Source: Neotamlana nanhaiensis
GTDB lineage: Bacteria; Bacteroidota; Bacteroidia; Flavobacteriales; Flavobacteriaceae
Reading direction: 5' to 3'
Length of the DNA: 64,000 nucleotides
Assembly: GCF_000943555.1 (NCBI RefSeq)
Contig: NZ_JTDV01000002.1
Location: 124,001-188,000, forward strand
This document shows, piece after piece, positions 29,072 through 53,966 of the stretch (position 1 is its first letter; the number at the start of each line of letters is the position of its first letter). Both the position numbers and the translations under genes were made by a program. The notes beneath the pieces were generated by a model. The model had not been told where the DNA came from, searched no databases, and saw only the letters and a program-made list of their open reading frames with translations.

Positions 29072-29099
29072 TTTTAGGTGGGTTTTCAAGATAATTTAT

Positions 29100-29479
29100 T
29101 ATTTGTTGGTTTATCCTTCTAGGAAATAAAGCCAAAGAAATTAAAAACTTCTTTGGCTTGATGAAAAATTAAACTAACTCACAATTAACATTATAAACTA
29201 CTAGTAAAGTTTAATGTGCTTTTAACTAGCTGTAAATGATTATTTGTATTGTAAATGTAGTGTCTTATTTATTGAAATTTGAAGTATTATTAACATAAAC
29301 CTGTATTATGTTAACTTATTTTGAGTTTTTGTTGTTAAAAAATTGGTGATAGGCATGTGGTATGATACCTAATTGTATGTAGAATTTATGTTGCTAGTTG
29401 ATTTATTAAACTATAAATCCAGAAAGTATTAATACTTTCTGGCTTTATAATTAGGGAAATAAAAGTTTCAAATGAAAAG
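29100..29479 (-). terminator. Two terminator-type hairpins between the susD-like and GH127 genes
   Basis: The 400-base gap holds no gene. Hairpin 1 is a perfect 12-bp-arm palindrome at 29419-29442 (CCAGAAAGTATT and its complement). Hairpin 2 is AAGCCAAAGAA (29129-29139) with its complement (29149-29159). On the minus strand both follow the SusD stop, so they may be attenuators that give SusC/SusD more transcript than GH127. I see no clear -7 box for the GH127 gene here. Confidence 0.65.
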
Positions 29480-31078: not shown

Positions 31079-31089
31079 AATTCTATTTT

Positions 31090-37785: not shown

Positions 37786-38163
37786 ATGGAAGAAGTTTTA
37801 GAAAAATACACGGCAACCAAAATAGAAGATGTTAAGGTTTGGTTTAAAGCAGCATCAATTAGCGATTTTCCTGCCGACGGTGGCGCTTGTGTAAAGTATA
37901 AAAATAAGCAAATTGCGGTTTTTAATTTTGCTCGATTAAATAAATGGTATGCCTGCCAAAATGTTTGTCCGCATAAAATGGAAATGGTATTGTCGCGCGG
38001 TATGATTGGAGACGATAAAGGCACACCAAAAGTAGCTTGCCCGTTACATAAAAAAACATTCTCGTTGGAAAATGGTGAAAATTTAAATGGCGATTTAGAA
38101 GCTATTGCAACTTATCCTGTAAAAATTGAAGAAGAAAATGTGTATATTGGCTTTGCAGACTAA
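37786..38163 (+). CDS. nirD: Nitrite reductase small subunit
   Basis: A 125-residue Rieske-fold protein that partners NirB. Seen: WFKAASISDFPADGGACV, KQIAVFNFARLNKWYACQNVCPHK and the second segment CPLHKKTFSLENG. The CPH and CPLH segments look Rieske-like, although NirD proteins usually lack the full cluster set. The gene starts 23 bases after nirB and is co-transcribed with it. Confidence 0.94.
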   Translation: MEEVLEKYTATKIEDVKVWFKAASISDFPADGGACVKYKNKQIAVFNFARLNKWYACQNVCPHKMEMVLSRGMIGDDKGTPKVACPLHKKTFSLENGENLNGDLEAIATYPVKIEEENVYIGFAD

Positions 38164-38175
38164 TATTTAAAACAC

Positions 38176-38760
38176 ATGAAGCCTACAAGATTTGAAACCG
38201 CAATTGCTTTAATTGATAATAAAAACGCCGAAGATATAAACGTTTACGAAACCCATGGCATTAAGTTTCCAAAAGAGTTATTGTATTCGCAGCGTATGTC
38301 GCAAAAATTATTACAATTTAAACCAAACGCTTCAAGAGCATTACAAATAGCAGCGCGGGCACAACATATTTGCCGTTGGAAAATTGATAGAGACGAGTAC
38401 CCAATGGATCGTGTAGGTTATTTAAAATGGCGCGAGTCTTTAAAAAAATTACATGCCGATTTAACCGAATCTATTTTAAAAGACGTAGGTTTCAACGACG
38501 AGTTTATAAAACGTGTAACCGATTTAATTAAGAAGAAACTCATAAAGAAAAACGAAGAAACACAAATACTCGAAGATGTTATTTGTTTGGTTTTTCTAGA
38601 TTATTATTTCGATGAGTTTGCCGAAAAGCATTCCGACGAAAAAATTATTGATATTCTTCAAAAAACTTGGGTTAAAATGTCTGATGAAGGTCATGAAGAA
38701 GCTTTGAAAATAAAATATTCCGATAAAAGTTTAGCGCTTATAAAACAAGCATTATCATAA
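38176..38760 (+). CDS. DUF4202 domain protein
   Basis: A 194-residue helical, soluble protein with conserved-looking segments YSQRMSQKLLQF, IAARAQHICRWKIDRDEYP and DVICLVFLDYYFDEF. The paired His and Asp/Glu residues (AQHICRW; EDVICLVF; DEFAEKH) recall HD-type metal sites, but the family's function is unknown to me. It is 12 bases from nirD and 12 bases from the sensor kinase gene, so it is translated as part of the nitrite reductase operon. A role in NirBD assembly, metal or nucleotide handling is only a guess. Confidence 0.75.
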   Translation: MKPTRFETAIALIDNKNAEDINVYETHGIKFPKELLYSQRMSQKLLQFKPNASRALQIAARAQHICRWKIDRDEYPMDRVGYLKWRESLKKLHADLTESILKDVGFNDEFIKRVTDLIKKKLIKKNEETQILEDVICLVFLDYYFDEFAEKHSDEKIIDILQKTWVKMSDEGHEEALKIKYSDKSLALIKQALS

Positions 38761-38772
38761 AAACAAATAAGT

Positions 38773-40629
38773 ATGAATAATAACAGCAACACCTTGGACC
38801 AACGTACCTTTGGTAAGTTAAGTCGGTTGTATGTTATTGCACTTACAGTTATTGCTTTGTCTATTATTGTTAGTCAGTATTTAGTACGAAAGCATCTTAA
38901 TACACAAGAAAGCGATTCTACAATTATTAACGTTGCGGGTCGCCAACGAATGCTTAGCCAAAAACTCACTAAAGATGTGGTTAAGTTATCTTCCGCTAAA
39001 AATTTAGAAGCACAGCTTCAGCTTAAAAATCAAATAAAACAAACCTTGCTACTTTGGGAAACCTCGCATTATGCTTTGCAAAATGGTAGCGATAGTATGG
39101 GTTTACCCGGAGATAATAGTAAAGCTATTCAGCAAAAATTCAAAAAATTAAATCCTGTTTTTTTAAGTATAAGCAACGCTTCAAAAAGTATTATTTCTAA
39201 AATAGAAAACACGCCGCCTTTACCATTAACCCAATACGAAGCAGCTATTGAAACGGTTACCAACGCCGAAAGTAATTTTTTGGTTTTAATGGATGATATT
39301 GTAAACCAATACGATGTCGAGGCGAGTAAAAAAGTAAATTGGTTGCGCCAATTAGAAAGTTTTATTACCATTTTTACCCTGTTAGTGCTATTGCTAGAAT
39401 TTTTATTTATTTTCTGGCCAACAGCTAAAAATATTCGAGGTACATTATCCGATTTACTTCGTGCCGAACGCAAAGCTAAAAAAATGGCTATTGAGGCGGA
39501 TGAACTTAGTCTTGCCAAAGAAAAATCGATTAAAGAACTGCGTGCGCTAAATTATGCAATGGACGAAACCTTGCTTTTTGCTCGAATTACTCCCAATGGC
39601 TCGCTTGTGCATATGGGAAAAAAATTCTCAAAATTATTTAGAGTATCTCGTTTTAGCGTGTCAAGTTCTTTTGCCGAAATTCTTTCCATCCATGAAAACG
39701 AACAAGTAATAATTGAAAATATAATTACTAAGCATAAAAAAATAGGTTGGCAAGGCGAGGTAAAAGCAACAACTAAAGATGAAAAAGATATTTGGTTAGA
39801 AATGGCTTTTATTCCTTTTAACCCTTCCGAAGACAAATCAGAATTACTTATAATCGCTTCCGATATTACGTATAGAAAAGAGGCACAACTTGAAATTGAA
39901 CGATTAACAAAACAAGGTTTTGATGAAAAAATGAATCATCAAAAAATTATTTCAAGTCAAATTATAGAAAATCAAGAAAAAGAGCAAAGTCGTATAGCTA
40001 AAGACGTTCACGATGGTATTGGGCAAATGCTTACAGGGTTAAAATATAATTTAGAAAGTATAAATTTAAGTGACACAGAAAAAGCTTCGCAAAAAATTGA
40101 ATACTTAAAAGAATTAGCTTTAAATATTATAAAAGGTGTACGTACGGCAACTTTTAATTTAACACCTCCAGAATTGTCCGATCATGGTATTGTGCCCGCA
40201 ATTACAAAATTAACACAAGAACTTACTAAGTTAACCAATAAAAATATTCAGCTTTTTAATAAAAGTAATTTTAATCAGCGATTAGATTCTTTAGTCGAAA
40301 TTAATATTTATCGTATTGTACAAGAAGCTATTAACAATGCTATTAAGTATGCCGATTCATCGTATATTATTGTGTCGCTGTCGCATAGCGAAAATATACT
40401 TAGTATTGTTATTGATGATAATGGTAAAGGTTTTAACCCTAACAAAGTAGATAAAGTAAAAAATGGCGATGGCGGTATGGGAATGACGTTTATGAAAGAA
40501 CGCATAAAATATATTGACGGACGTCTGTTTTTGTCGTCCGAAGCAGGAAAAGGCACACGTGTAACCTTAAACATACCTTTACCAAAACAAGTAGATTCGG
40601 AAAAATTAGTAAATTTACCAACCATTTAA
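38773..40629 (+). CDS. NarX-like sensor histidine kinase
   Basis: A 618-residue membrane protein. TM1 is near residues 18-38. A periplasmic PilJ/NarX-type domain follows with INVAGRQRMLSQKLTKDV, which looks like the nitrate-binding P-box region. TM2 is near 195-215, then a coiled linker, a PAS domain (about 260-375), HisKA_3 with the phospho-acceptor His413 (AKDVHDGIGQM) and a C-terminal HATPase (NAIKYADSSYII; IDDNGKGFNPN; GGMGMTFMKERI). Class of NarX/NarQ. It probably senses nitrate or nitrite and acts on the response regulator 13 bases downstream. The ligand is inferred. Confidence 0.88.
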   Translation: MNNNSNTLDQRTFGKLSRLYVIALTVIALSIIVSQYLVRKHLNTQESDSTIINVAGRQRMLSQKLTKDVVKLSSAKNLEAQLQLKNQIKQTLLLWETSHYALQNGSDSMGLPGDNSKAIQQKFKKLNPVFLSISNASKSIISKIENTPPLPLTQYEAAIETVTNAESNFLVLMDDIVNQYDVEASKKVNWLRQLESFITIFTLLVLLLEFLFIFWPTAKNIRGTLSDLLRAERKAKKMAIEADELSLAKEKSIKELRALNYAMDETLLFARITPNGSLVHMGKKFSKLFRVSRFSVSSSFAEILSIHENEQVIIENIITKHKKIGWQGEVKATTKDEKDIWLEMAFIPFNPSEDKSELLIIASDITYRKEAQLEIERLTKQGFDEKMNHQKIISSQIIENQEKEQSRIAKDVHDGIGQMLTGLKYNLESINLSDTEKASQKIEYLKELALNIIKGVRTATFNLTPPELSDHGIVPAITKLTQELTKLTNKNIQLFNKSNFNQRLDSLVEINIYRIVQEAINNAIKYADSSYIIVSLSHSENILSIVIDDNGKGFNPNKVDKVKNGDGGMGMTFMKERIKYIDGRLFLSSEAGKGTRVTLNIPLPKQVDSEKLVNLPTI

Positions 40630-40642
40630 ACTAAGTAGAATT

Positions 40643-41311
40643 ATGGATGTTATTAATGTTGTTTTAGCCGACGATCACGTATTAGTACGCGATGGCATAA
40701 AGGCGCTCTTAGAAGATCAAGTAGGCATAAATGTAGTAAATGAAGCTTCCGATGGTGCTGAAGCCATTGAAATTATTAATAACGAGCAACCTCATGTTTT
40801 AATTGTAGATATACGTATGCCAAATAAAAATGGCATCGAGGTGGTTGGCGAGCTTAAACAAACACATCCTAATGTTAAAGCCTTGGTGTTGTCTATGCAC
40901 GACTCCGAAGAATACGTAGTTAAATCAATTCAAGCTGGTGCCGATGGTTATATGCTTAAAGGAGCGAGTAAAGACGAATTTTTAAAAGCGCTTAACACCG
41001 TGGCTTCAGGAGGTAAATATTTTACAGGTGAAGTATCGGAAATATTGCTTAATAATTTTGTTAATGGTAATGTGACTCCAGAAGTACCAAAGCGAGAAAT
41101 TTCAAAAGAAGACGATCCGTTTAAACTTACTAAACGCGAAAGGCAAATTTTAGAGCTTGTTTTACAGTTAAAAAACAATAAGGATATTGCCAAAGAGTTA
41201 GAAATAAGCAAGCGTACTGCCGAGGTACATCGGTTTAACCTTATGAAAAAACTTGAAGTTAAAAACCTTATGGAACTCACCAATAAGGCTAAAGAATACC
41301 AACTTATTTAA
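40643..41311 (+). CDS. NarL/FixJ-family response regulator
   Basis: A 222-residue regulator with a receiver domain (acidic pair Asp10/Asp11, phospho-acceptor Asp56 in VDIRMPN, Lys in GYMLKGAS) and a C-terminal LuxR-type HTH (KLTKRERQILELVLQLKNNKDIAKELEISKRTAEVHRFNLMKK, cited in part only). Partner of the NarX-like kinase. It may bind the 16-bp palindrome found upstream of the nitrate genes, though NarL sites normally look different. Last gene of the nir operon before a strong terminator. Confidence 0.93.
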   Translation: MDVINVVLADDHVLVRDGIKALLEDQVGINVVNEASDGAEAIEIINNEQPHVLIVDIRMPNKNGIEVVGELKQTHPNVKALVLSMHDSEEYVVKSIQAGADGYMLKGASKDEFLKALNTVASGGKYFTGEVSEILLNNFVNGNVTPEVPKREISKEDDPFKLTKRERQILELVLQLKNNKDIAKELEISKRTAEVHRFNLMKKLEVKNLMELTNKAKEYQLI

Positions 41312-41627: not shown

Positions 41628-44600
41628 ATGTTAAAAAAAGAAATTAAAACAACATGTTCGTATTGCGGTGTAGGCTGCGGAATTGTTATTAAAAAAGATA
41701 ATAACGACAAGGTTTTTGTTGAAGGAGATAAAGATCACCCTGTAAACAAAGGGATGCTATGTAGTAAAGGTATGAATCTGCATTATGTAGCCAACGATAC
41801 TTCCGATAGAATTTTATATCCAGAAATGCGCTGGAGCAGATCGCACCCAAGAGAGCGTGTTACTTGGGATGATGCCCTCGATAGAGCTGCAAGCGTATTT
41901 AAAACCATGATTAAAAAATACGGTCCAGATAGTGTAGCATTTTATGTATCTGGACAAAGTTTAACCGAAGAATATTACATCGCTAATAAATTAACCAAAG
42001 GCTTTTTAGGAACCAATAACATCGATACTAACTCGCGTTTATGCATGAGTTCGGCAGTGGTTGGTTATAAAAAAACATTTGGTGAAGACAGCGTACCTAT
42101 TTCGTACGAAGACATAGAATTGGCAGACTGTTTTTTAATTACAGGTGCAAATCCTGCATGGTGTCATCCTATATTATTCAGACGCATTGAAAAGCATAAA
42201 GAGGAAAATCCTAATGTAAAAATTATAGTTGTAGACCCTAGAAAAACCGATTCTGCAAACTTTGCCGATTTTCATTTACAACTTATCCCTGGAACAGATA
42301 TTATTCTGTATAATGCCATTGCACGTTGTATTTACGAACGCGGATTAATAGATGAGCATTTTATAAATAACTATACCGATGGTTTTACTGCCTATAAAGA
42401 GCTTATTTTTAAAACATCGGTAAAGCAAGCCGCAAAACAGTGTGGTGTACCAGAAAAATTAATTCGTAAAGCTGCCGATATTATTGGGCTTTCAAAAGGT
42501 TTTATTAGCATGTGGGCCATGGGCTTAAACCAAAGCGTTATTGGTACCGATAAAAATGTATCCCTTTTAAACCTCTCGCTTATTACAGGAAATGTTGGTA
42601 AACCCGGTGCAGGTCCTTTTTCGTTAACAGGACAACCTAACGCTATGGGCGGACGCGAAGTTGGCGGTATGGCAAATTTACTAGCGGTTCATAAAGATTT
42701 AGCAAATGCCGAACACAGACGCGAAGTAGCGCAATTTTGGGGTGTTGAAGAGATTTCGCCTAAACCTGGATTAACCGCTACCCAAATGTTTGATGCTTTA
42801 GAATCGGGTAAATTAAAAGCCATTTGGATTGCCTGTACAAACCCGTCGGTAAGCCTACCTAATTCACATAAAATTGAAAAAGCCATGACAAACGCTAAGT
42901 TTGTGGTGGTACAAGATATATCGCATAAATCCGATACTACCGAGTATGCCGATTTATTACTTCCCGCCGCAGGTTGGTTGGAAAAAGAAGGAACCATGAC
43001 AAACTCTGAGCGTCGTATTTCGTATTTACCAAAAGAAATTCAGGCGCCAGGTGAGGCTCGACCAGATGTTGAAATTTTCTGCGACTTTGCGCAGCGCATG
43101 GGCTTTAGAGGATTTAATTATAACAGTACCGAAGAAATTTACGACGAGTATTGTAGCATGACCAAAGGCACTAATATTGATGTGTCGTTTCTTAATTACG
43201 ACCGTTTAAAAACCGAAGGTACATTTCAATGGCCTGTGCCAGAATACAGGCATGCTGGAACACCGCGTTTGTTTGAAGATAAAGTATTTTATACTCCATC
43301 AAAAAAGGCCATTTTTAACGTGCCTTCTTCTATTGAAAATACCGCCGTAAAACCAAACGACGATTTTCCTTTAGTTTTAACCACAGGGCGTGTGCGAGAC
43401 CAATGGCATACCATGACCAAAACTGGTAAGGTAGCTCGATTAAAAACGCATTACCCAAAACCTGTTTTAGAAATTAATCCGGTTGATGCTTATCTCAACA
43501 ATATAAAAGATGGCGATATAACGCAAATTACTAGCGAAAATGGTGAAGTTCGCGTACGTGCTAAAGTCACTAAAAATATTGCCAAAGGCGTTGTATTTTT
43601 ACCTATGCATTGGGGCAAACAGTTGCAAAATACCTTAAACAGAGCAAATAATTTAACACATACGGTTTTAGATCCAACATCGAAAGAGCCCGATTTTAAA
43701 TACACCCGTGTTAAAGTTGCCAAATACAAAAAACAAAAAGATAAAATTATAATTGTTGGTGCTGGAGCAGCAGCTTTTAGGTTTGTTCAAAATTATCGCG
43801 AATTAAATGAAGCAGACGAATTACATGTGTTCTCAAAAGAGCCAAATTTATTCTATAATCGAGTATTACTTCCCGAGTATGTTACCGATGAGTTAAGTTG
43901 GGAACAATTACTTAAAATTAAGAAATTCGAACTTTCAAAACTCGACATTAACGTGCATCCAGAAACGTTTATTGTCGAAATAAATCAGAAAGAAAAATAT
44001 GTAATCGATAACAAACACGAGAAACATAGTTTCGATAAACTTATTTTAGCTACAGGAAGTCGTGCCTTTGTGCCTCGCGATGTTCAAATAGATTTGCCTG
44101 GGCGATTTACCATGCGTAATAAAAAAGATGCTGACGATTTTAAGGCTTATTTAGATGCCACAGGATTACCTCCAGAAGAGCAACATGTTGTAATTGTTGG
44201 TGGCGGTTTACTTGGTTTGGAGCTCGCTGCAGCAATGAAGCATAAAAATGCGAAAATAACCATTATTCAACGTGCTTCCCGATTAATGGAGCGTCAATTA
44301 GATAGTATTTCCAGTAAATTATTGTCGCTCGATGTGCAGGAACGTGGTATTCAAATTTATTTTGACAATGAAGTAAGCACGGTTTTCGATGATGAAGATA
44401 CGGGCGAATTAAACATCACCTTAAAAAGTGGTAAGTTTTTAACAGCAAATGCCATTGTTTATGCAATCGGGACGATTCCAAATGTTGAAATGGCTAGAGA
44501 AAATGGTATTTTATGCGGAAGAGGCGTTAAAGTAAATGAGCATTTACAATCGTCAAACCCCGATATTTTTGCCATTGGTGAAATTGCTGAATATAACAAC

Positions 44601-45149
44601 CAATTATTCGGAATTACCTCGGCTGCCGAAGAGCAAGCCAATATTTTAGCCAATTATATTGCGGGCGATTTAGGCTCGTCTTACCATGGTTCGGTTCTTA
44701 TGAATATTTTAAAATTCAACGATCTAAACTTGTGTAGTATTGGAGATATTAAAGTACCCGAAAACGATGAAAGCTATGAAGAAATTATTTTCACCGATAT
44801 AAAAAAGCGTTATTATAAAAAATGTATTGTAAAAAATGATTTGCTTATTGGTGCGGTTTTAATGGGCGACAAAAATGAATTTGCCGAATTTAAATCGATG
44901 ATTGAAAGTAAAATAGAAATGGCCGAAAAGCGTGATAGCTTATTGCGAAGCGCCTCAAATACCGAACCTGTAAAAGGCGAATTGGTGTGCTCTTGCAGTC
45001 AAGTTGGCGTAGGTAATATAGAAGAAGCTATTCGTGGCGGATGTGCCGATTTTACCGAGTTATGCAATTCTACAGGAGCTGGTTTAGGCTGTGGTAGTTG
45101 TAAAACCGAAGTACGAGAAATTCTAAATAACTCAAAAGTATTAGCATGA
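41628..45149 (+). CDS. nasA: Assimilatory nitrate reductase fused to NasB-like flavoprotein and BFD domain
   Basis: A 1173-residue protein that reduces nitrate to nitrite. Order: [4Fe-4S] motif C10-x2-C13-x3-C17 with C44, the bis-MGD molybdopterin domains to about residue 700 (FYVSGQSLTEEYYIANKLTK; FLITGANPAWCHP; TGRVRDQWHTMTKTG near 590; MHWGKQLQNTLN), then a linker into an FAD/NAD(P)-binding domain from about 705 (IIIVGAGAAAFRFVQ; VVIVGGGLLGLELAA), then a C-terminal BFD-like [2Fe-2S] domain with LVCSCSQVG near 1119 and GLGCGSCKTEV near 1155. NasA and NasB are separate in many bacteria and are joined here. The next gene overlaps it by 4 bases. Confidence 0.9.
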   Translation: MLKKEIKTTCSYCGVGCGIVIKKDNNDKVFVEGDKDHPVNKGMLCSKGMNLHYVANDTSDRILYPEMRWSRSHPRERVTWDDALDRAASVFKTMIKKYGPDSVAFYVSGQSLTEEYYIANKLTKGFLGTNNIDTNSRLCMSSAVVGYKKTFGEDSVPISYEDIELADCFLITGANPAWCHPILFRRIEKHKEENPNVKIIVVDPRKTDSANFADFHLQLIPGTDIILYNAIARCIYERGLIDEHFINNYTDGFTAYKELIFKTSVKQAAKQCGVPEKLIRKAADIIGLSKGFISMWAMGLNQSVIGTDKNVSLLNLSLITGNVGKPGAGPFSLTGQPNAMGGREVGGMANLLAVHKDLANAEHRREVAQFWGVEEISPKPGLTATQMFDALESGKLKAIWIACTNPSVSLPNSHKIEKAMTNAKFVVVQDISHKSDTTEYADLLLPAAGWLEKEGTMTNSERRISYLPKEIQAPGEARPDVEIFCDFAQRMGFRGFNYNSTEEIYDEYCSMTKGTNIDVSFLNYDRLKTEGTFQWPVPEYRHAGTPRLFEDKVFYTPSKKAIFNVPSSIENTAVKPNDDFPLVLTTGRVRDQWHTMTKTGKVARLKTHYPKPVLEINPVDAYLNNIKDGDITQITSENGEVRVRAKVTKNIAKGVVFLPMHWGKQLQNTLNRANNLTHTVLDPTSKEPDFKYTRVKVAKYKKQKDKIIIVGAGAAAFRFVQNYRELNEADELHVFSKEPNLFYNRVLLPEYVTDELSWEQLLKIKKFELSKLDINVHPETFIVEINQKEKYVIDNKHEKHSFDKLILATGSRAFVPRDVQIDLPGRFTMRNKKDADDFKAYLDATGLPPEEQHVVIVGGGLLGLELAAAMKHKNAKITIIQRASRLMERQLDSISSKLLSLDVQERGIQIYFDNEVSTVFDDEDTGELNITLKSGKFLTANAIVYAIGTIPNVEMARENGILCGRGVKVNEHLQSSNPDIFAIGEIAEYNNQLFGITSAAEEQANILANYIAGDLGSSYHGSVLMNILKFNDLNLCSIGDIKVPENDESYEEIIFTDIKKRYYKKCIVKNDLLIGAVLMGDKNEFAEFKSMIESKIEMAEKRDSLLRSASNTEPVKGELVCSCSQVGVGNIEEAIRGGCADFTELCNSTGAGLGCGSCKTEVREILNNSKVLA

Positions 45150-46582
45150 TGACAGAGCCATATAGACTGCGAATTAACGGCGGTGTTTTATCGCCAGGGG
45201 AATTAAAATATATTTGTGAAGCTGCCGAATATTTAGGGTTAGATGCCATTTCGTTTGGCTCGCGACAAGATATTATTTTCCCCGAAGAAATCGATGAGAG
45301 TAAGTTTAGCGAATTCAATAAAATCACCTTTGTAAAACCAAAGCGCGATGGTGTAGAAAACTTATCATCATCATACGTATCGGCCGATATTTTACCAAGC
45401 ACCTCATGGCTTACCAGCGATAGATATTTATACATTATTGAGCAGTTTAAGCACCATTTAAAATTGCGTGTAAACGTTACCGATCCTAAGCAGCGTTTGG
45501 TGCCATTATTTACAGGAAATGTAAATTTTGTAGCCTCAGAACATGAAGATTATTGGTATTTGTTTGTTCGATTACCAGGCTGGAAAAAAACACAAATGTA
45601 TCCCGCTTTAATTTATAGTTGGGATATGGATAAAATTGAAATGGCAATTGAAAACGTGCTTCAGGAAGATCCTGAAAATGTTGAAACCATTTTTCAATTA
45701 GTTAGCGATGCTGTTGACACTAATAATAGAACCGTAGATAAACCGCTTGAAGTACCATTTTACCCGTTTCCGTATTACGAAGGCATGAACCGCATTGGCG
45801 ATAAGTATTGGTTAGGTTTATACTGGCGAAACAACCGTTACGATATTAAATTTTTAAAAGCACTTTGCGAAATTTGTGCCGAAAATAAAGTTGGTAAAAT
45901 ATCTATTACACCTTGGAAAAGCTTTATTGTAAAAGGAATTCCTGCCGAATCGAAATTAGATTGGGAAAAATTATTAGGACGTTTTGGTATAAACGTGCGC
46001 CATTCTATGTTGGAGATGAATTGGCATATTCCTGTAAATGATAAGGATGCGCTAAATCTTAAAAAATACTTAGTTACCAATTTCGATCAAAACGATATAA
46101 GTACATACGGGTTAACTTTTGGAATTACCAGTTTCGATAGTTCAACTTATAATTTTACATCTATTGTAATTGAAAAAAATAAAGCGCCAGAATCTGTTGG
46201 CGACTTTATAATTCGAGATACTTATAATTTGCTGTATGCAAAGAATTTCGATCCCAACACACGTGAATACATTGTTCATGTTCAAGATGTTGATATGGTG
46301 GAATTACCAGGATTACTAATGGAATTAAGTAAGTTGTATTTTGAAGAATTAGGAAATGAAAAATACGACACTGAAGCAGAACATATTATTACTGAAGCTA
46401 CCGAAGAAAAAGTTTATCAATGTAACGAATGTTTAACGGTTTACAATGACGAATACGGCGATATTACTCAAGATATTCCGCCAAAAACACCATTCGATAA
46501 TTTACCAGAAACGTATCAATGTTCGTTATGCGAAGCACCTAAAAGTAGTTTTGAAAAAAAAGTATTAGTAAATAAAATTTAA
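45146..46582 (+). CDS. Sulfite/nitrite reductase-like protein with C-terminal rubredoxin
   Basis: A 478-residue protein overlapping the end of the nitrate reductase gene by 4 bases (ATGA). The N-terminal 350 residues look like nitrite/sulfite-reductase ferredoxin-like half domains (YRLRINGGVLSPGELKYICE; GISITPWKS-type strand near 255), but the cysteines that hold siroheme and [4Fe-4S] are absent. The C-terminal 50 residues are a rubredoxin: VYQCNECLTVYNDEYGD and then YQCSLCEAPKSSFE, with four Cys in two CxxC pairs, the normal Fe site. Probably an electron carrier or assembly protein dedicated to the nitrate reductase. The role is inferred; I do not know a characterised homologue. Confidence 0.8.
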   Translation: MMTEPYRLRINGGVLSPGELKYICEAAEYLGLDAISFGSRQDIIFPEEIDESKFSEFNKITFVKPKRDGVENLSSSYVSADILPSTSWLTSDRYLYIIEQFKHHLKLRVNVTDPKQRLVPLFTGNVNFVASEHEDYWYLFVRLPGWKKTQMYPALIYSWDMDKIEMAIENVLQEDPENVETIFQLVSDAVDTNNRTVDKPLEVPFYPFPYYEGMNRIGDKYWLGLYWRNNRYDIKFLKALCEICAENKVGKISITPWKSFIVKGIPAESKLDWEKLLGRFGINVRHSMLEMNWHIPVNDKDALNLKKYLVTNFDQNDISTYGLTFGITSFDSSTYNFTSIVIEKNKAPESVGDFIIRDTYNLLYAKNFDPNTREYIVHVQDVDMVELPGLLMELSKLYFEELGNEKYDTEAEHIITEATEEKVYQCNECLTVYNDEYGDITQDIPPKTPFDNLPETYQCSLCEAPKSSFEKKVLVNKI

Positions 46583-46702: not shown

Positions 46703-47701
46703 CTATCCACCAATAGTTATCATGCTTCGGTTTTTACCATGTAAATCAGGCGTTTTTAATTTTTTGAGCGTATCCATGCCACCACGAATTTTAAATTTAG
46801 CTGCTACCGCTTTTTTAATTACTGGTTCTATGGATTTACCTTCTCGTAACGTGGTTAATAAATCTGATTCTTCCGAAGAAAATAAACAATTTTTCAATTG
46901 CCCATTAGCGGTTAATCGTAGTCTGTTACAGGAATCGCAAAACGGATTGGTAACCGAACTTATTATAGCAAAACTTCCTTTGTAACCTTCAATTTTATAG
47001 TTTTTAGAGGTGTCGTTTGGAGCATCAGTTAATCGAATAATATCTTTTTTATCAAAGGCTTCTTCTGCAAATTGCATCACTTCTGCATACGATATCATTT
47101 TACTCATATCCCATTTATTGCCATCAAAAGGCATGAACTCAATAAAGCGAACCGAAATGGGTAAGTCTTTTGTGAATTTTATAAAATCTACAATTTCATC
47201 TTCGTTAAACCCTTTCATTAATACGGCGTTTAGTTTAACGTTAAAACCTTCGTTTATAAGTTGTAAAATGTTGTTATAGACTTTGTCGAAATTATTACGT
47301 CGCGTGATATGCGTGAATTTGTCTTTGCTAAGCGAATCGAGACTCACATTAATATTTTTAACGCCGTATTTCTTTAAATCATCAATAAAACGATCGATAA
47401 TTACTGCGTTTGATGTGATAGACAATTCTACAGGTAGCGACGCTAGTTTTTCTAAAATGGTGCTAAAATCTTTACGAACAAGAGGTTCTCCACCGGTTAA
47501 CCTAATTTTTGTTACACCATGGTTTACAAAGGTTTTTGCGATGTTGTACACTTCTTCGTAGGTCATTAAATGACTTTTAGGAGACAAAGGCACACCAGCT
47601 TCGGGCATGCAATACGTACAGCGTAAATTGCAGCGTTCGGTTAACGAAATGCGCAAGTAGCTGTGTTGTCGGTTAAATTTGTCTGTTAATATGTTTGTCA
47701 T
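46703..47701 (-). CDS. moaA: GTP 3',8-cyclase (molybdenum cofactor synthesis)
   Basis: A 332-residue radical SAM enzyme, the first step of molybdopterin synthesis. The N-terminal cluster motif CNLRCTYC is near residue 23, the second [4Fe-4S] cluster is CDSCNRLRLTANGQLKNC near 260, and the protein ends in Gly-Gly, as needed for activity. Normal length. The last gene of the minus-strand moe/moa run; the convergent nitrate reductase operon ends 120 bases away. Confidence 0.97.
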   Translation of the reverse strand: MTNILTDKFNRQHSYLRISLTERCNLRCTYCMPEAGVPLSPKSHLMTYEEVYNIAKTFVNHGVTKIRLTGGEPLVRKDFSTILEKLASLPVELSITSNAVIIDRFIDDLKKYGVKNINVSLDSLSKDKFTHITRRNNFDKVYNNILQLINEGFNVKLNAVLMKGFNEDEIVDFIKFTKDLPISVRFIEFMPFDGNKWDMSKMISYAEVMQFAEEAFDKKDIIRLTDAPNDTSKNYKIEGYKGSFAIISSVTNPFCDSCNRLRLTANGQLKNCLFSSEESDLLTTLREGKSIEPVIKKAVAAKFKIRGGMDTLKKLKTPDLHGKNRSMITIGG

Positions 47702-47744
47702 TTTATATTAAGTATTTTGTTTTCCAGACCAAAACCTAACAGGC

Positions 47745-48656
47745 TTAATCATGTCGCGCACCTCTTAAAACGCCAAATACATGTTGCACCGACGGAAAAA
47801 TGGCATCCATAGATTCTTTGGCGCCATTTGTAGAACCGGGAAGTGCTAAAACCAAGGTGCTTCCAATAGTTCCTGCAACACTGCGCGATAGCATAGAATA
47901 CGGCATACGTTGTTGTCCGTAATTTCTAATAGCCTCTTCAATACCGGGTATGCGTCGGTCTAAAATTGGCATTAATGCTTCGGGTGTTACATCGCGTTTT
48001 GAAAGCCCGGTACCACCAGTGAAAATTACCAAATCAATCCCCATACTTTCATAGCTTTTGGCTTTATTTTGAATGCTTTCAAGCTCATCAGGAATAATCA
48101 CGTATTCCGAAATACTAACCTCACAAGCTTTTAACTTTTCAATAATGGCTTTTCCGGCTTTATCTTCTTTATGTCCTGCCGAAATAGTATCGCTACAAAC
48201 CACTACTGCAGCGGTTAAATCGGTTTTAAATTTGTTTTTGTAATCCGATTTGCCGCCTTTTTTGCTTAGCAGTTTTATCGCGTGAATTTCAATGCCTTTG
48301 TCAATTGGTTTTAGCATATCGTACATGTTTAAAGCCACAACGCTTGCGCCATGCATCGCTTCAACTTCTACGCCAGTTTTGTAAATGGTTTTTACCGTAA
48401 AAATCACACGGATATCTAAACCGTCTATTTTGTATTCAACGCCAGTAAATTCAATGGGTAACGGGTGGCAATCGGGTAAAATATCAGGTGTTCGTTTTAC
48501 ACCTAAAAGTCCCGCCGCTTTACTCATGGCAAACACATTACCTTTCGGAACGGTATCGTTTTTTATAGCGTCGATGGTTTCAGGCTTGCTTACTTTTACA
48601 GTCGCTTGTGCAACCGCCGTTCGTAATGTTGTTTTTTTATGTGTGATGTCTACCAT
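47745..48656 (-). CDS. moaCB: Bifunctional MoaC-MoaB molybdenum cofactor protein
   Basis: A 303-residue fusion. Residues 1 to about 150 are MoaC, cyclic pyranopterin monophosphate synthase (VDITHKKTTLRTAVAQATVK; DCHPLPIEFTGVEY; MHGASVVALNMYDMLKP; HAIKLLSKKGGKSDY). Residues about 165-303 are MoaB/Mog-like (VVCSDTISAGHKEDKAG; VIFTGGTGLSKRDVTPEA; LALPGSTNGAKESMD), which adenylates molybdopterin. Such fusions are known in Bacteroidetes. It lies 44 bases upstream of moaA. Confidence 0.93.
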   Translation of the reverse strand: MVDITHKKTTLRTAVAQATVKVSKPETIDAIKNDTVPKGNVFAMSKAAGLLGVKRTPDILPDCHPLPIEFTGVEYKIDGLDIRVIFTVKTIYKTGVEVEAMHGASVVALNMYDMLKPIDKGIEIHAIKLLSKKGGKSDYKNKFKTDLTAAVVVCSDTISAGHKEDKAGKAIIEKLKACEVSISEYVIIPDELESIQNKAKSYESMGIDLVIFTGGTGLSKRDVTPEALMPILDRRIPGIEEAIRNYGQQRMPYSMLSRSVAGTIGSTLVLALPGSTNGAKESMDAIFPSVQHVFGVLRGARHD

Positions 48657-48800
48657 TATAGTATTTTCTATTGTATTTTTATTAATTATTTTTTCAAGAT
48701 TCCTTTTAAATATTACCTTTATTTTCTGAAATTGATTGTCTTTTTATGTGATTTTGAACAAAAATTTTGATTTGGTTTATAGCGTGTTCTTTTAGATTAA

Positions 48801-49244
48801 TCAATTATTTACTTTCCATTGATGCGATTCGTCTTCAAAAATTTCTTTGCCAAATACAGGAACATTAGCTTTAATTTCTTCAACTACATATTCTAAGGCT
48901 TCAAAAACGACTTTTCGATGTGGCGCCGAAACGAATACAAACAGACAAATTTCACCTGCTTTAACAGTGCCTAAACTGTGGTAAATATGCATGCAAGTCA
49001 GGTCGAATTTTTCGAAAGTGGCCTCTCGAATATCATGAAATTTTTGGTTTGCCATGTCTTCGTATGCGGTATATTCTATCGCTGAAACTGTTTTGCCATC
49101 AACATCATCGGCACGTACTTGACCTAAGAAAATATTGTGTGCTCCAATGCTGGTTTTGCTTTGGTGTTTGTAAATGCTGTTGCCTATAAATTCATGCGAA
49201 ATGGCACCTTCTCTAAATACATTTTTGGGTTTTTTGTCTTTCAT
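48801..49244 (-). CDS. moaE: Molybdopterin synthase catalytic subunit
   Basis: A 147-residue protein that with MoaD inserts dithiolene sulfur. Seen: ISHEFIGNSIYKHQSKTSIG, HNIFLGQVRADDVDGKTV, IYHSLGTVKAGE with the active-site Lys region, and VSAPHRKVVFEALEYVVEEI. Normal length. The gap of 145 bases to moaCB is the largest within this run. Confidence 0.95.
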   Translation of the reverse strand: MKDKKPKNVFREGAISHEFIGNSIYKHQSKTSIGAHNIFLGQVRADDVDGKTVSAIEYTAYEDMANQKFHDIREATFEKFDLTCMHIYHSLGTVKAGEICLFVFVSAPHRKVVFEALEYVVEEIKANVPVFGKEIFEDESHQWKVNN

Positions 49245-49255
49245 AGATTTATTTT

Positions 49256-50374
49256 TTAGTCATTGCGAGGAACGTGGCAATCTTTTTTACCTTCTTCGTA
49301 ATGACGCATGTTTGCATAATTCTTTATCTCCTGAGCACCTTCTTCAATACTAAAGCAATTGGTAATTCCAGATTCATTTAATAGTTTAACAGCTCTTTTG
49401 CTGCGTGTTCCTGATTGGCAAAACAAGTAGTTTTCTGAGTGATTTTTAAATTGATCAAGATGATTTTGAATTTCGCTAAGCGGAAGTGAAACCACATTAA
49501 ATTCATCTACTTTTGGTTGCTCATGGGCTTCGCGCACATCAATAATTTGAATGTTTTTTTTGTTGATAATGCTTTTGAAGGAAACCGTGTTAACCACTTC
49601 GCAATTAAGTTTTATTGATTGTGAAGTGAATGCAGCCGATTTTTCTAAAACTGAATTTACAATCGCTTCATTTTTATTGATTTTTAATGTCGATGATTGA
49701 TTGGTTAGCGTGTTGAAACAGAATAATTTTCCAGATAACACTTCGCCAATTCCCGTGATTATTTTTATGACTTCGTTGGCTTGTATGCTGCCAATAATTC
49801 CGGGTAAAACACCTAAAACACCAATTTCTGAACAGTTAGGAACGGCATCTTTTTGTGGCGGATTAGGAAATAAACAGCGGTATGTTGGTCCGTTTTGATA
49901 ATTAAATACCGAAACCTGACCTTCAAATTTGTAAATAGCTCCAAAAACTAGCGGTTTGTTGGTAATTATGCAGGCATCGTTAACAAGGTAGCGGGTTTCA
50001 AAATTGTCCGATCCATCTACAATAATATCGTATTGCTCAAATAATTGCAATGCATTTTGATAGGTAAGTGCTTCAGGATAACTTTTTATTTCAATGTCAT
50101 TATTTAAATCTTGCAAGGGTTGTTTTGCAGCCAGCGCTTTGTTTTTACCTAATGATGAATCTCCAAACAGAACCTGTCGTTGCAGGTTTGAAAGTTCTAC
50201 AACATCAAAATCGATAATACCCAACGTGCCTACGCCAGCGGCAGCAAGGTATTGTAAGATGGGACACCCCAATCCGCCAGCACCAATAACCAAAACTTTG
50301 GCTTTAGAAAGCTTGTTTTGGCCTATTTGTCTAATCTCTGGTAGAATGATATGTCTGTTGTATCTATTTGTCAT
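49256..50374 (-). CDS. moeB: MoeB/ThiF-type adenylyltransferase with rhodanese domain
   Basis: A 372-residue protein that activates the MoaD C terminus. The E1-like domain shows VLVIGAGGLGCPILQYLAAAGV (residues 29-50, nucleotide loop), DFDVVELSNLQRQ and DGSDNFETRYLVND. The C-terminal 100 residues are rhodanese-like with a Cys in LFCQSGTRSKRA that could carry persulfide. The four Cys of the zinc site of classical ThiF/MoeB are only partly present (CLFPNPP), so metal binding is uncertain. Twelve bases upstream of moaE. Confidence 0.9.
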   Translation of the reverse strand: MTNRYNRHIILPEIRQIGQNKLSKAKVLVIGAGGLGCPILQYLAAAGVGTLGIIDFDVVELSNLQRQVLFGDSSLGKNKALAAKQPLQDLNNDIEIKSYPEALTYQNALQLFEQYDIIVDGSDNFETRYLVNDACIITNKPLVFGAIYKFEGQVSVFNYQNGPTYRCLFPNPPQKDAVPNCSEIGVLGVLPGIIGSIQANEVIKIITGIGEVLSGKLFCFNTLTNQSSTLKINKNEAIVNSVLEKSAAFTSQSIKLNCEVVNTVSFKSIINKKNIQIIDVREAHEQPKVDEFNVVSLPLSEIQNHLDQFKNHSENYLFCQSGTRSKRAVKLLNESGITNCFSIEEGAQEIKNYANMRHYEEGKKDCHVPRND

Positions 50375-50390
50375 TTGTTGCTCTTTTTCT

Positions 50391-50423
50391 AGACCTGTTA
50401 GGTTTTTAAAACCTGACAGGTCT
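50391..50423. repeat. AGACCTGTTAGG-type palindrome, copy 2
   Basis: AGACCTGTTAGGTTTT (50391-50406) pairs with AAACCTGACAGGTCT (50409-50423). Shares its core with 21773-21805. It sits between moeB and moaD, where it may act as a weak terminator or an mRNA processing site. Confidence 0.75.
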
Positions 50424-50435
50424 GATCTCGTATTT

Positions 50436-50669
50436 TTATCCTCCAGAAAATGGTGGTAATAAAGCTATTTCAGCACCCGATAGTTCGGTATCTACCGAAA
50501 CAATTTCTTGGTTCTGTGCTATTTGAAAATCTTTTTGTTTTAAACCTTTATGTTTATTTAATAACAGATTTAAAAGGCTTGATATTTGACCTTTTTCTAT
50601 GGTTATTAATTCTTCGGTGGTGTTTGTTGTTTCAACAAGTTGACCAAAATATTTAATAGTTATTTCCAT
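50436..50669 (-). CDS. moaD: Molybdopterin synthase sulfur carrier subunit
   Basis: A 77-residue ubiquitin-fold protein ending in FSGG, the Gly-Gly that is adenylated and thiocarboxylated. I chose the ATG at 50669 (MEITIKYFGQLVETT); a TTG two codons upstream is less likely. It overlaps the 3' end of mobA by 17 bases, so translation of the two is coupled. Confidence 0.92.
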   Translation of the reverse strand: MEITIKYFGQLVETTNTTEELITIEKGQISSLLNLLLNKHKGLKQKDFQIAQNQEIVSVDTELSGAEIALLPPFSGG

Positions 50670-51237
50670 TTGCAATAGCTTTAAAATCGTTTGGTGTGTT
50701 AACGTTTATAGTTGTGTTTTCTTCAGCTTTATTTAAAATTACAGATTTTGTTTTTAGAGATTTTAACACGTTTTGCAATCGGCGTTCATTGTTGTTAAGT
50801 GCTGTTTTAAACATCTCTAAAGTTTCTGTTTTATACATAGCAATTAAAGGCATGGTTTTGCCGTTGCTTTCTATTTGAATAACATCGCTCGTGGCGTCAA
50901 CAGCATCAATCAATTGTTGTAACACAGCCGTATTGATAAACGGAATATCACAACTTAACACCAAATTATACTTAGTTTTCGATACATTTAAACCTGAATA
51001 AATACCTGCTACGGGACCAGCATTTTTTATTTCGTCTTCTATTCTTTTACAATGAAAAGCATCATAATCAGGATTATCAGAAATAATTAAAATTTCAGAA
51101 ACCAATGGTTTTAAAGCATTAATACTATGGGTTGTGAAATGTTTATTGTTCAGTTTTAAAAAACCTTTGTCTGTTCCCATTCTTGAGCTTTTTCCGCCCG
51201 TTAAAACAATGCCTGTTATGTTACTTTCATCAATCAT
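50653..51237 (-). CDS. mobA: Molybdenum cofactor guanylyltransferase
   Basis: A 194-residue nucleotidyltransferase that attaches GMP to molybdopterin, giving the MGD cofactor used by nitrate reductase. The nucleotide loop is GIVLTGGKSSRMGTDKGFL near residues 8-26. The Asp pair DDE-like site is in LSCDIPFIN near 93. Ends inside the moaD region. The neighbouring TauE/SafE gene is 1 base away. Confidence 0.93.
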   Translation of the reverse strand: MIDESNITGIVLTGGKSSRMGTDKGFLKLNNKHFTTHSINALKPLVSEILIISDNPDYDAFHCKRIEDEIKNAGPVAGIYSGLNVSKTKYNLVLSCDIPFINTAVLQQLIDAVDATSDVIQIESNGKTMPLIAMYKTETLEMFKTALNNNERRLQNVLKSLKTKSVILNKAEENTTINVNTPNDFKAIANGNNY

Positions 51238-51238
51238 T

Positions 51239-51979
51239 TTAAGTAAACATTAGTTTTGCACAAGCAATTACGAGCACAAAAGCTAAAATGTATCGTAATT
51301 TTTGATTGTTTAGTTTTTTACTTCCTAAAAATCCGCCAAAGACCCCGCCAATTAAAGCGACTGCAACCAAAACGAACGATCCTGTTTCAATAGTTACACC
51401 GCTACTTATTTGTCCGATTAAACCCGATGCAGAATTCACCCATATAAATAAGGCCGAAACTGCCGCAGCCTCCTTCATTTTGCCCCAATGCAACAATAAA
51501 ATTATGGGTGTGAGTATAATGCCGCCGCCAATACCAATAAGACCCGAAAAGAAGCCAATAACGCCACCAACGACAAGTCCTTGCCACAGTTTTACGGGTT
51601 TAATTTCGTCTTTTTCTTTTCCGAAAACATTCAGCATTTTTAAAATGGCAAAAATCAGTAGAATGGCTAAGGTCTTTTTGTAAATAGAAGCATCAATTTC
51701 AATAGTTCCGCCTAAAAAAGCACAGGGAATAGAGCTTATTGCAAACGATAAAAACAGCTTTTTATTGAAATGTCCTGCTCTAAAATAATAGTAAAAGGAA
51801 ATGCCTGCCACAAATAAATTTAGTAACAAAGCGGTTGGTTTCATGGTGTTTGGGGCAAATGAAAATAATGCCATTAAAGCCAGATAACCACTTGCGCCGC
51901 CATGACCTACACTGGCATATAAAAATGAAATGACAGGTAGAATGGCTAAGAATAAATATATGTTTTCGGTTTGTAGCAT
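51239..51979 (-). CDS. TauE/SafE-family anion transporter
   Basis: A 246-residue membrane protein with about eight hydrophobic segments (for example LAILPVISFLYASVGHGGASG near residue 10 and GLIGIGGGIILTPIILLLHW near 140). TauE/SafE proteins export or import small oxyanions and sulfonates. In this operon it could move nitrite, sulfite or molybdate, or be linked to sulfur trafficking for MoaD. Direction and substrate cannot be read from sequence. Confidence 0.88.
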   Translation of the reverse strand: MLQTENIYLFLAILPVISFLYASVGHGGASGYLALMALFSFAPNTMKPTALLLNLFVAGISFYYYFRAGHFNKKLFLSFAISSIPCAFLGGTIEIDASIYKKTLAILLIFAILKMLNVFGKEKDEIKPVKLWQGLVVGGVIGFFSGLIGIGGGIILTPIILLLHWGKMKEAAAVSALFIWVNSASGLIGQISSGVTIETGSFVLVAVALIGGVFGGFLGSKKLNNQKLRYILAFVLVIACAKLMFT

Positions 51980-52027
51980 AATAAAAGTGCCTAAAGTGCG
52001 CTTAAGTATTTAAAGGTTAAAGTGGTT

Positions 52028-52381
52028 TTAAAGTTTGTTTGCAATGGATGTAAATAGAGCTAATAGTTCTTTTGCTTCTTTAATAATTGTGTTCAATTGT
52101 TTAGATTCAACCCAATTCAAGTCGTTAATTATTTCTAACCAATATTCAGTTTCACTTGCTTCACTTTCGCTTATTTTAATTTTGTTTTTAAAATCTTTTT
52201 TACTCCTAGAGCGATTGGCTTCGCGATAATTTGCACCAATGCTTGTTCCAGATTTTGTTATTTGATTTCTAATTACTTTGCCTTCAATTGTATTTGGTAA
52301 TGTTGCGGATAGTTTAATTACCGAAATCCCAAAAAGTCGGGTTCTTACTTCAAGTTGTTTTGCAAATTCTTTGTTGTTCAT
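52028..52381 (-). CDS. Four-helix bundle protein (23S rRNA IVP type)
   Basis: A 117-residue all-alpha protein with FAKQLEVRTRLFGISVIKL, GKVIRNQITKSGTSIGANYREA and the RSKKDFKNKIKISESEASETEYWLEI stretch (cited in part), typical of the small four-helix bundle family found within rRNA intervening sequences and as lone genes in Bacteroidetes. Function unknown. It stands within the Mo-cofactor gene run but is not expected to belong to that pathway. Confidence 0.88.
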   Translation of the reverse strand: MNNKEFAKQLEVRTRLFGISVIKLSATLPNTIEGKVIRNQITKSGTSIGANYREANRSRSKKDFKNKIKISESEASETEYWLEIINDLNWVESKQLNTIIKEAKELLALFTSIANKL

Positions 52382-52446
52382 TTTTTAAGGTTTACTCAGT
52401 TTAACTTTAAACTTTAGACACTTCTAACTTTAGGCACTTCTATGAC

Positions 52447-52785
52447 CTACAAGCTTTCAATTTTAGTTAATTCTTTATCTAAAAAATCCCAACAATTTTT
52501 GTTTATGGTATCAAAGGCTTTAATTAGTGATTTTCCATATTCGGTTAACTGAGCACCACCACCACCTTTGCCGCCAATACTATTTATGGTTACAGGTTTT
52601 TTAGCCGATTTGTTAACGGAATCAATTAAATCCCAGGCTTTTTTATAGGATATTTTTTCTTGTTTTGCAGCTTTCGATAAAGATCCCGTTTGGTCTATAG
52701 CTTTTAATAAATGCACACGACCTTCGCCAAGTAGCACATGGTTTTCGAACTCTATCCAAATTCTGCTTTTAATTTTATAACTCAT
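52447..52785 (-). CDS. ModE-like winged-helix protein (DNA-binding domain only)
   Basis: A 112-residue protein matching the N-terminal winged-helix of ModE: VLLGEGRVHLLKAIDQTGSLSKAAKQEKISYKKAWDLID with GGKGGGGAQLTEYG, cited in part. The molybdate-binding TOBE part is missing, as in other short ModE-like proteins. It is 2 bases downstream of moeA. Likely a molybdenum- or nitrate-linked regulator of this operon; whether it senses anything is open. Confidence 0.9.
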   Translation of the reverse strand: MSYKIKSRIWIEFENHVLLGEGRVHLLKAIDQTGSLSKAAKQEKISYKKAWDLIDSVNKSAKKPVTINSIGGKGGGGAQLTEYGKSLIKAFDTINKNCWDFLDKELTKIESL

Positions 52786-52787
52786 AA

Positions 52788-53966
52788 TTAAACGGGTAAT
52801 AGCATGGTTTCAACGGTGTCACCAATCTTAATTTCGCTCACTTCTTGTGGTACAAAAACCAATGCGTTAGCCAGAGCAAAAGTGTGTTGCATTGCCGAAC
52901 TTTGACCTTCTAAAATAGTGACGTTATCATTATTATAAATCGCTTTTAAAAATTGAGGACGATCGCCTTTTTTTACAAAAGCAGTTTCAGATTTTGCTGA
53001 AACTGTTGGTAAATCAACCCTTTCGTTATTCATCATGATTTGAAGCGCTGTGTAAACATATTTGTAGAAACAGGTCAAAGCTGCTGCTGGATTTCCAGGT
53101 AGCGCAAATATGTTAGTGTGGTTTTTAGTGCCGAAAAACAACGGTTTTCCTGGTTTTTGCATCACTTTATAAAAATGTTGGGTAATATTTAATTTAGTAA
53201 GTGCATCGCCAACAAAATCATAATCACCAACCGATATACCACCGGTAATTAATACTAGATCGTGGTTTGTAATGGCTTCTCGTAATGTGTTGTAGGTGTT
53301 ATCAAAATCGTCGTTTACTTTTAAAATGGTAACATCGTAAAATTTCAAACTGTACAGTGCGCTCAGGAGCATTTTAGAGTTGCTCTCATAAATACAACCA
53401 TATTCAAGAGGTTCACCCGGATTTACTAATTCGTTTCCAGTTGTAATAATGGCGATATTTGGTTTTTTAAAAACATCAATGGTAGTAACACCTAAAGAGC
53501 TAAGGTAGCCAATAGCAGCGGGTGTAATTTTTGTGTTTTTCTCAAGCGCCAAGGCTCCTGATTTTACTTGCTCGCCAATGGGGCGAATGTTTTCATGTTC
53601 AAATACCGAGGTTGTTACAGTAATCTCATTAGCTTTAGCGGCTACTTTTTCTTGCATGACAACTGCATTTGCAGTTTCTGGAACTGGAGCGCCAGTAAAA
53701 ATACGAATAGCTTCACCTGCTTCTAAAACAGGTTGCTTATTATCGCCTGCTTTCACTTCGCCAATTAATTTGTAAGTATTTTGATTGTGCATGTTTAGCG
53801 CATAACCATCCATAGCCGATTGCCTAAAAGGTGGCATGTTTATATTTGAGTAAACATCGCTAAATAATTTATAACCATTAGCTTTTTCAACAGGTTTTGT
53901 TGCTTTTCGTAGCATAGGTTTACAGTGCTTTTTAACAAGATTAATGGCTTGATTAACTGAAATCAT
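52788..53966 (-). CDS. moeA: Molybdopterin molybdotransferase
   Basis: A 392-residue protein that inserts molybdate into adenylated molybdopterin. Seen: MPPFRQSAMDGYALN near residue 41, RIFTGAPVPETANAVV, the MPT-binding ITGGISVGDYDFVGDAL near 240 and KPGKPLFFGTK then FALPGNPAAALTCFYKY. Normal length. First gene of the minus-strand run down to moaA, with a TATATTTG -7 box facing the fnr-like gene across a 236-base gap. Confidence 0.95.
   Translation of the reverse strand: MISVNQAINLVKKHCKPMLRKATKPVEKANGYKLFSDVYSNINMPPFRQSAMDGYALNMHNQNTYKLIGEVKAGDNKQPVLEAGEAIRIFTGAPVPETANAVVMQEKVAAKANEITVTTSVFEHENIRPIGEQVKSGALALEKNTKITPAAIGYLSSLGVTTIDVFKKPNIAIITTGNELVNPGEPLEYGCIYESNSKMLLSALYSLKFYDVTILKVNDDFDNTYNTLREAITNHDLVLITGGISVGDYDFVGDALTKLNITQHFYKVMQKPGKPLFFGTKNHTNIFALPGNPAAALTCFYKYVYTALQIMMNNERVDLPTVSAKSETAFVKKGDRPQFLKAIYNNDNVTILEGQSSAMQHTFALANALVFVPQEVSEIKIGDTVETMLLPV

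Follow-up and report, generated by a model that had tools for sequence, protein, structure and literature searches.

In the genome of Neotamlana nanhaiensis, the gene for a fused assimilatory nitrate reductase (NR) is followed on the same strand by a gene encoding a protein of 478 amino acids, in which a body resembling siroheme sulfite/nitrite reductases is joined to a C-terminal rubredoxin. This rubredoxin-tailed protein accompanies one clade of Bacteroidota nitrate reductases, and in many Bacteroidota it seems to be an as yet undescribed helper dedicated to nitrate reductase. The explanation that we favour, and to which we give an even chance, is a pseudo-reductase subunit that binds NR and bears an electron carrier on a tether. 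Should the protein prove to be a subunit of NR, the current picture of how electrons reach bacterial assimilatory NR would be incomplete, and the protein would be a clear example of a siroheme reductase that has become a pseudo-enzyme. Two simple questions thereby become testable: what reduces the rubredoxin, and what ligand occupies the old siroheme cleft.

Gene layout and annotation

The gene lies in a 64,000-nucleotide stretch of DNA (hereafter, the window). Upstream of it, in this order, are genes for NirB, NirD, a DUF4202 protein, a PilJ-type kinase, a response regulator and NR. The relevant features of the window are as follows.

35246..37762, + strand: NirB, siroheme nitrite reductase large subunit (PF01077, PF03460; TIGR02374 over cut-off)
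37786..38163, + strand: NirD, Rieske-type small subunit (TIGR02378 over cut-off)
38176..38760, + strand: DUF4202 protein of the nitrate cluster (PF13875, E 2.6e-75)
38773..41311, + strand: histidine kinase with PilJ sensor domain, and LuxR-type response regulator (family matches)
41628..45149, + strand: fused assimilatory NR with 4Fe-4S/Mo domains, FAD/NAD(P) module, Rubredoxin_C and BFD [2Fe-2S] (Pfam, NCBIfam)
44268..44282, + strand: end of beta2 of the NR NAD(P) fold, Q881-R-x-x-R885, predicted to be of the NADPH type (sequence comparison and a general rule)
45146..45149, + strand: ATGA overlap of the NR stop and the start of the rubredoxin-tailed ORF (sequence)
45146..46582, + strand: rubredoxin-tailed pseudo-sulfite/nitrite reductase, 478 aa, the subject of this study (Pfam, conservation, hhalign)
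45146..46357, + strand: body, residues 1-404, two-lobed siroheme-reductase fold without 4Fe-4S ligands (two PF03460 stretches, hhalign, Foldseek/VIA, dN/dS)
45866..45877, + strand: near-invariant internal C241-x-x-C244
46358..46408, + strand: variable linker, residues 405-421 (dN compared with that of the body)
46415..46552, + strand: rubredoxin domain, residues 424-469, with Cys 426/429/459/462 (PF00301)
46703..53966, - strand: molybdenum-cofactor genes and a TauE permease (Pfam: MoaC-MoaB fusion, MoaE, TauE)
within 46703..53966, - strand: MoaA, MoeB-like, MobA, ModE-like and MoeA (translations read, no family match)

Read from its first ATG (45146), the rubredoxin-tailed ORF overlaps the end of the NR ORF (stop codon TGA, 45147-45149) by 4 nt, as an earlier sequence-only reading of this DNA had reported; a start at the second ATG, at 45149, would leave an overlap of 1 nt. 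Among 80 close relatives, the two genes overlap by 1-4 nt in 64 and are separated by a gap of at most 30 nt in 8 and of 56-224 nt in another 8. This gene layout suggests that NR and the rubredoxin-tailed ORF may be translationally coupled.

Pfam detected the PF03460 half-domain in two stretches of the protein (E 4.3e-12) and the PF00301 rubredoxin at residues 424-469 (E 6.6e-14). No NCBIfam model fits the protein, the top match being the rubredoxin model NF045768 with a score of 39.1 against a cut-off of 90. In two annotated plasmid records, from Hymenobacter and Spirosoma, the relatives are labelled only 'rubredoxin' and adjoin a gene labelled 'nitrate reductase'. No description of a rubredoxin-tailed NR partner was found in the open-access literature, in agreement with the earlier suggestion that such a protein had not been described.

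Distribution and association with nitrate reductase

Relatives of the body were found in 29 of the 395 genomes of an even draw from Bacteroidota; the further matches in this draw, at E values above 1e-10, comprised the rubredoxin part alone among the matches listed. A second, class-level draw yielded a relative in 21 of 395 genomes. Among GTDB genomes, at least 580 stretches were confirmed as relatives and the best 80 were kept (the close loci); the closest named relatives among these best 80 of at least 580 belong to Tamlana species, with 90-92% identity. Because it is conserved in 29 of 395 Bacteroidota genomes and in at least 580 GTDB stretches, the ORF is not a chance one. A plasmid search reaching beyond Bacteroidota returned six records, four of which (two from Persicobacter and one each from Hymenobacter and Spirosoma) matched more than 80% of the query; in the other two, both Azospirillum plasmids, the match was confined to the rubredoxin. 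Four sequence sets, each including the window sequence, were assembled: A1 with 15 of the 28 relatives from the even Bacteroidota draw, A2 with 38 of the 80 close loci, A3 with 20 of the 36 relatives outside these 80, and A4 with 77 of the 80 close loci (L047, L055 and L057 were excluded).

NR is the same-strand neighbour of the gene in 104 of 105 loci (80/80 close, 16/17 diverse and 8/8 further loci), which are not proven to be independent because some may represent the same species and the genome draws overlap. For approximately L070 to L072, the adjacency is taken from the survey of the 80 close loci. The association with nitrate reductase that had been proposed from the window alone is supported by these loci. 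In L123 and L177, the two genes are separated by an ORF of 269 or 168 aa, and in L122 by a gap of approximately 0.7 kb. The single exception (genome G126, L124:273-1553) is a relative at a contig edge that ends before the rubredoxin; searches of this genome detected neither NR nor NirB, and this relative without a rubredoxin is likely a relic.

The association also holds at the genome level. The fused NR is present in 28 of the 29 genomes that contain the protein (27 in the NR draw, plus G391 by a separate search). In a draw of 390 genomes, 32 contain a near-full-length fused NR, and 27 of them also have the rubredoxin-tailed protein; it occurs in every one of the 27 genomes in which NR shares 57% or more identity with that of the window. 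No match to it was obtained in the other five, whose NRs show 48-54% identity. Not every NR of the fused architecture thus requires the protein. NirB was found in all 22 tested NR-bearing genomes with the protein, compared with none of the five without it (no match over cut-off). Because NirB is inverted in G249, G182, G088 and G723 and lies on a different contig in G190, it is NR to which the gene is tightly linked.

In the five genomes without the protein (L142-L146), the fused NR lies beside NirA-like and flavodoxin/CysJ-like genes, identified mostly by reading, and not beside NirB or the rubredoxin-tailed protein. PF01077 reductases were confirmed among the genes beside the partner-less NR in two genomes, G050 and G008.

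The body retains a siroheme-reductase fold and has lost the cluster ligands

Sequence comparisons support the derivation of the body from a siroheme sulfite/nitrite reductase whose catalytic cluster ligands were lost. PF03460 was matched by all 21 diverse members of the family. In a one-profile comparison by hhalign, the profile of the body aligned with that of 16 sulfite/nitrite reductases, picked for full length among search hits, over 400 columns that include both lobes (probability 97, E 1.1e-10, 12% identity). Recognizing this relationship required profile-profile comparison; a search of PDB sequences with the body profile gave only a single chance match, Hcp1 (E 0.31). Using the first AlphaFold2 model (mean pLDDT 61), Foldseek placed sulfite reductase at the top (E 1.1e-10 to 4g39) and NirA seventh; VIA-align superposed the body on NirA (1zj8_A) with a Z score of 16.7, 283 residues being aligned at 3.7 A, chiefly within residues 1-290 of a model of the same mean pLDDT of 61. 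These results substantiate the sulfite-reductase-like body noticed in the sequence-only reading. The two AlphaFold2 runs (39 and 78 sequences, 63-92% identity) reached mean pLDDT values of 61 and 59 and were poor at residues 283-417, mostly below 50; because the models are poor, we claim no geometry for the cleft or the Cys residues.

PF01077, the 4Fe-4S/siroheme domain, is absent from the nine families listed for the 21 members at E <= 10, a listing from which the HMMER filters discard most matches above approximately 0.1. The four Cys ligands, which are present in all 16 reductases, have no Cys counterpart in the body: in the profile alignment, three fall in gaps and one is opposite F330. 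Given these two findings, the conclusion that the ligands were lost stands. The earlier reading had correctly recognized this loss, but assigned the ligands to the ferredoxin-like half-domains, whereas they belong to PF01077. According to the profile alignment, the conserved Gly positions of the reductases are also gone, several basic positions are not preserved, and other conserved reductase residues are replaced (R131 by E71, R171 by L/P105 and Q99 by I44).

Basic residues of the type of R7, R40, K106 and K/R108 bind siroheme and anions in sulfite reductase. In the body, the kept cleft positions are R40 (117 of 117 sequences), R/K7 and K/R108 (115 of 117 each), together with N72 (117 of 117); the basic position K106 is also fully or partly kept. 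Judged from the lost ligands, the body is probably without siroheme, with some of the basic siroheme/anion cleft residues remaining. It has acquired a new set of invariant residues, including C241 (117/117) and C244 (116/117, with Ser in one member). This internal pair had been overlooked in the earlier Cys inventory, which was right about the four Cys of the rubredoxin.

The rubredoxin tail and selective constraint

By its sequence, the tail is an intact rubredoxin, in which a redox-active Fe(Cys)4 centre would be expected. It matches PF00301 with 52.1 bits against a cut-off of 23 and contains both CxxC knuckles, and 116 of 117 sequences have the complete set of four Cys, in line with the C-terminal rubredoxin noted earlier. 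In L026 and L029, the loop between the rubredoxin Cys is shortened and the four Cys are kept. Rubredoxins usually have Gly right after each CxxC, a usual feature rather than a defining one; here, residue 430, after the first CxxC, is L/M/F in 105 of 117 sequences, and residue 463, after the second, is acidic (E/D) in 105 and Gly in eight. The tail is the sole PF00301 match of the window's genome at E <= 0.001 and the only one genome-wide in 20 of the 22 searched genomes with both NR and the protein. No PF00301 match was found in the other two, G391 and G190, where the tail is shortened, or in the five NR genomes without the protein. Residues 409-472 alone also match the flavorubredoxin NorV model NF003954 (E 5.2e-7, below cut-off), and Pfam detected no flavodiiron domain in the protein.

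When the window was compared with two close relatives, dN was 0.025 and 0.042 for the body, 0.023 and 0.023 for NR, 0.49 and 0.40 for the linker, and 0.19 and 0.16 for the rubredoxin. The corresponding dN/dS ratios were 0.02-0.03 (body), 0.02 (NR), 0.43-0.79 (linker) and 0.14-0.17 (rubredoxin), and are rough because dS is approximately 1 or more in most comparisons, near saturation. The constraint on the body is about equal to that on NR, and the dN values look like those of a body under tight constraint to which a more loosely constrained carrier is tethered.

The nitrate reductase and its NAD(P)H module

The NR of the window (1173 aa) consists of a Mo/4Fe-4S catalytic part fused to a NirB-like FAD/NAD(P)-Rubredoxin_C-BFD module. 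The FAD module matches the model for NorW, the NADH:flavorubredoxin reductase (E 1.6e-46, below cut-off), and this match, together with that of the tail to NorV, makes electron transfer from FAD to rubredoxin plausible. However, NorW is not the closest match of the module: NirB (E 4.9e-90) and some other reductases are closer, so the rubredoxin is not singled out as its partner. NR holds a complete chain from FAD through [2Fe-2S] to [4Fe-4S]/Mo. The idea that NR has lost a redox centre for which the rubredoxin substitutes was rejected, because the Cys residues of BFD and of the N-terminal part are all in place in those partnered NRs that were compared.

The residue at the end of beta2 in the NAD(P) fold predicts the use of NADPH or NADH. 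In the 25 partnered NRs compared (the window and 24 diverse loci), it is Q in 20 and H in 5, followed by R in 24; in all 80 close loci, the two residues are Q-R. It is E in all five partner-less NRs and in the 8 NirBs that were readable by pattern. By this rule, the NR clade with the partner is predicted to use NADPH rather than NADH. The apparent NADH-to-NADPH switch tracks the presence of the partner, and the two may go back to a single event in one clade.

Possible roles of the rubredoxin-tailed protein

We propose that the two-lobed body of a siroheme sulfite/nitrite reductase, after losing its cluster and its ability to act as a reductase, was turned into a docking module for NR, which it would bind most likely at the NirB-like FAD/[2Fe-2S] module. 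The flexible linker would let the cell's only detected rubredoxin swing, so that it could relay single electrons between the NAD(P)H/FAD module of NR and the iron-sulfur/Mo centres, or to another acceptor. Such a protein would probably be stoichiometric with the assimilatory NR. We favour this explanation because NR is the adjacent gene in all but one locus and co-occurs with the protein in all but one genome, because the tail is the sole rubredoxin in most genomes searched, and because the lone exception, G126, is without NR, NirB and the rubredoxin tail. The NorW and NorV matches (both below cut-off), a dN/dS of the body near that of NR and the retention of four Cys even in the shortened rubredoxins of L026 and L029 argue in the same direction. 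Several points count against it. An extra carrier is not obviously needed, because the NR chain is complete and five of the 32 genomes have the NR without the protein. Conservation is stronger in the body than in the carrier, which might also be so in a chaperone or a binding enzyme; the protein co-occurs with NirB as well as with NR; and the AlphaFold2 models are poor over residues 283-417.

For the same reasons, namely the complete NR chain and the NRs that do without the protein, a role as an NR-specific maturation factor is the main rival, a serious one although somewhat less likely. The body would attach to apo-NR or to its Mo-bisPGD/Fe-S centres, while the rubredoxin would protect or reduce the site during assembly, a role comparable to that of HoxR/HupI for hydrogenase or of NarM for cyanobacterial NR. 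Such a factor would fit the overlapping genes, the confinement of the protein to one NR clade in our draws, a degree of constraint on the body close to that on NR, and the new invariant residues with the C241xxC244 pair. However, no chaperone family was matched in Pfam or NCBIfam at E <= 1, other NRs of the fused architecture manage without the protein, and C244 is Ser in one member.

A more speculative and rather unlikely reading is that the basic cleft of the retired siroheme reductase was rebuilt for another anionic ligand, either a cluster-less siroheme or the Mo cofactor in transit, which would be worked on with electrons from the rubredoxin and C241xxC244; the protein would then be a cofactor-handling NR redox partner of a new kind. 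We consider it improbable that the protein is itself a catalytic reductase, fed by the rubredoxin, that uses siroheme or another cofactor without 4Fe-4S and has as its substrate nitrite, NO or hydroxylamine that escapes from NR. The end-to-end alignment of the body with active reductases, the partly kept cleft (R40, R/K7, K/R108 and N72) and the strong constraint on the body speak for catalysis, whereas the four Cys ligands, the Gly positions and the counterparts of R131, R171 and Q99 are lost and NirB and NirD are encoded beside the gene. A nitrogen or redox sensor, in which the state of the rubredoxin iron or the binding of nitrite tunes NR or links it to NirB, would accord with the co-occurrence with both enzymes and has a precedent in the regulatory kinase PknG, which has a rubredoxin domain (PMC10232911), but is very unlikely, as a PilJ-type two-component system is already encoded at the locus and Pfam and NCBIfam detected no effector-binding or regulatory domain in the protein.

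Comparison with known systems

The siroheme reductases CysI and NirA (PF03460 and PF01077) share with the partner protein the two-lobed body of 400 columns, both half-domains and some basic cleft residues. In contrast, the partner is without the 4Fe-4S/siroheme Cys, PF01077 and the Gly positions, and has new invariant residues and the rubredoxin tail. The gene order of NR and its partner mirrors the domain order of NirB, in which a FAD-Rubredoxin_C-BFD part is followed by a siroheme-reductase module. However, NirB keeps PF01077, and its siroheme domain, tried as the nearest relative of the body, was rejected as a weak match (hhalign probability 8.6, with a NirB profile of nine sequences and Neff 1.6).

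NorV is the flavorubredoxin of E. coli and NorW is its reductase. The resemblance to this pair lies in the C-terminal rubredoxin and in the FAD module of the neighbouring enzyme, which matches NorW below cut-off and less well than NirB; the partner body, however, has the fold of a siroheme reductase and not a flavodiiron one, and the FAD module and nitrate reductase form a single fusion protein. The class III hybrid cluster protein (7e0l) likewise joins a rubredoxin to a metalloenzyme fold, but there the rubredoxin is N-terminal, at the start of the chain, and the body is of the hybrid-cluster fold. Accessory genes beside metalloenzyme genes are also known for the cyanobacterial NR factor NarM and for HoxR/HupI, rubredoxins for hydrogenase. 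They resemble the present case as dedicated accessory genes adjoining a metalloenzyme gene, whereas the Pfam and NCBIfam scans of the partner showed no sequence relation to them.

Other genes in the neighbourhood

In many close loci, a DUF4202 gene (PF13875) lies between NirD and the nitrate sensor kinase, and no mention of DUF4202 was found in the open-access literature. On the other side of the rubredoxin-tailed gene, positions 47745-48656 of the window encode MoaC fused to a molybdopterin-binding domain of the MoaB/MogA type (PF01967 and PF00994). A NarK-like transporter gene adjoins NR in several distant relatives, and a homologue of this transporter with 52% identity is encoded approximately 0.2 Mb away in the genome of the window (G000:C10:376847-378115). 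Further upstream in the window, positions 26678-34086 contain polysaccharide-utilisation genes, including a GH127 beta-L-arabinofuranosidase and a SusC/SusD-like pair recognized by sequence reading.
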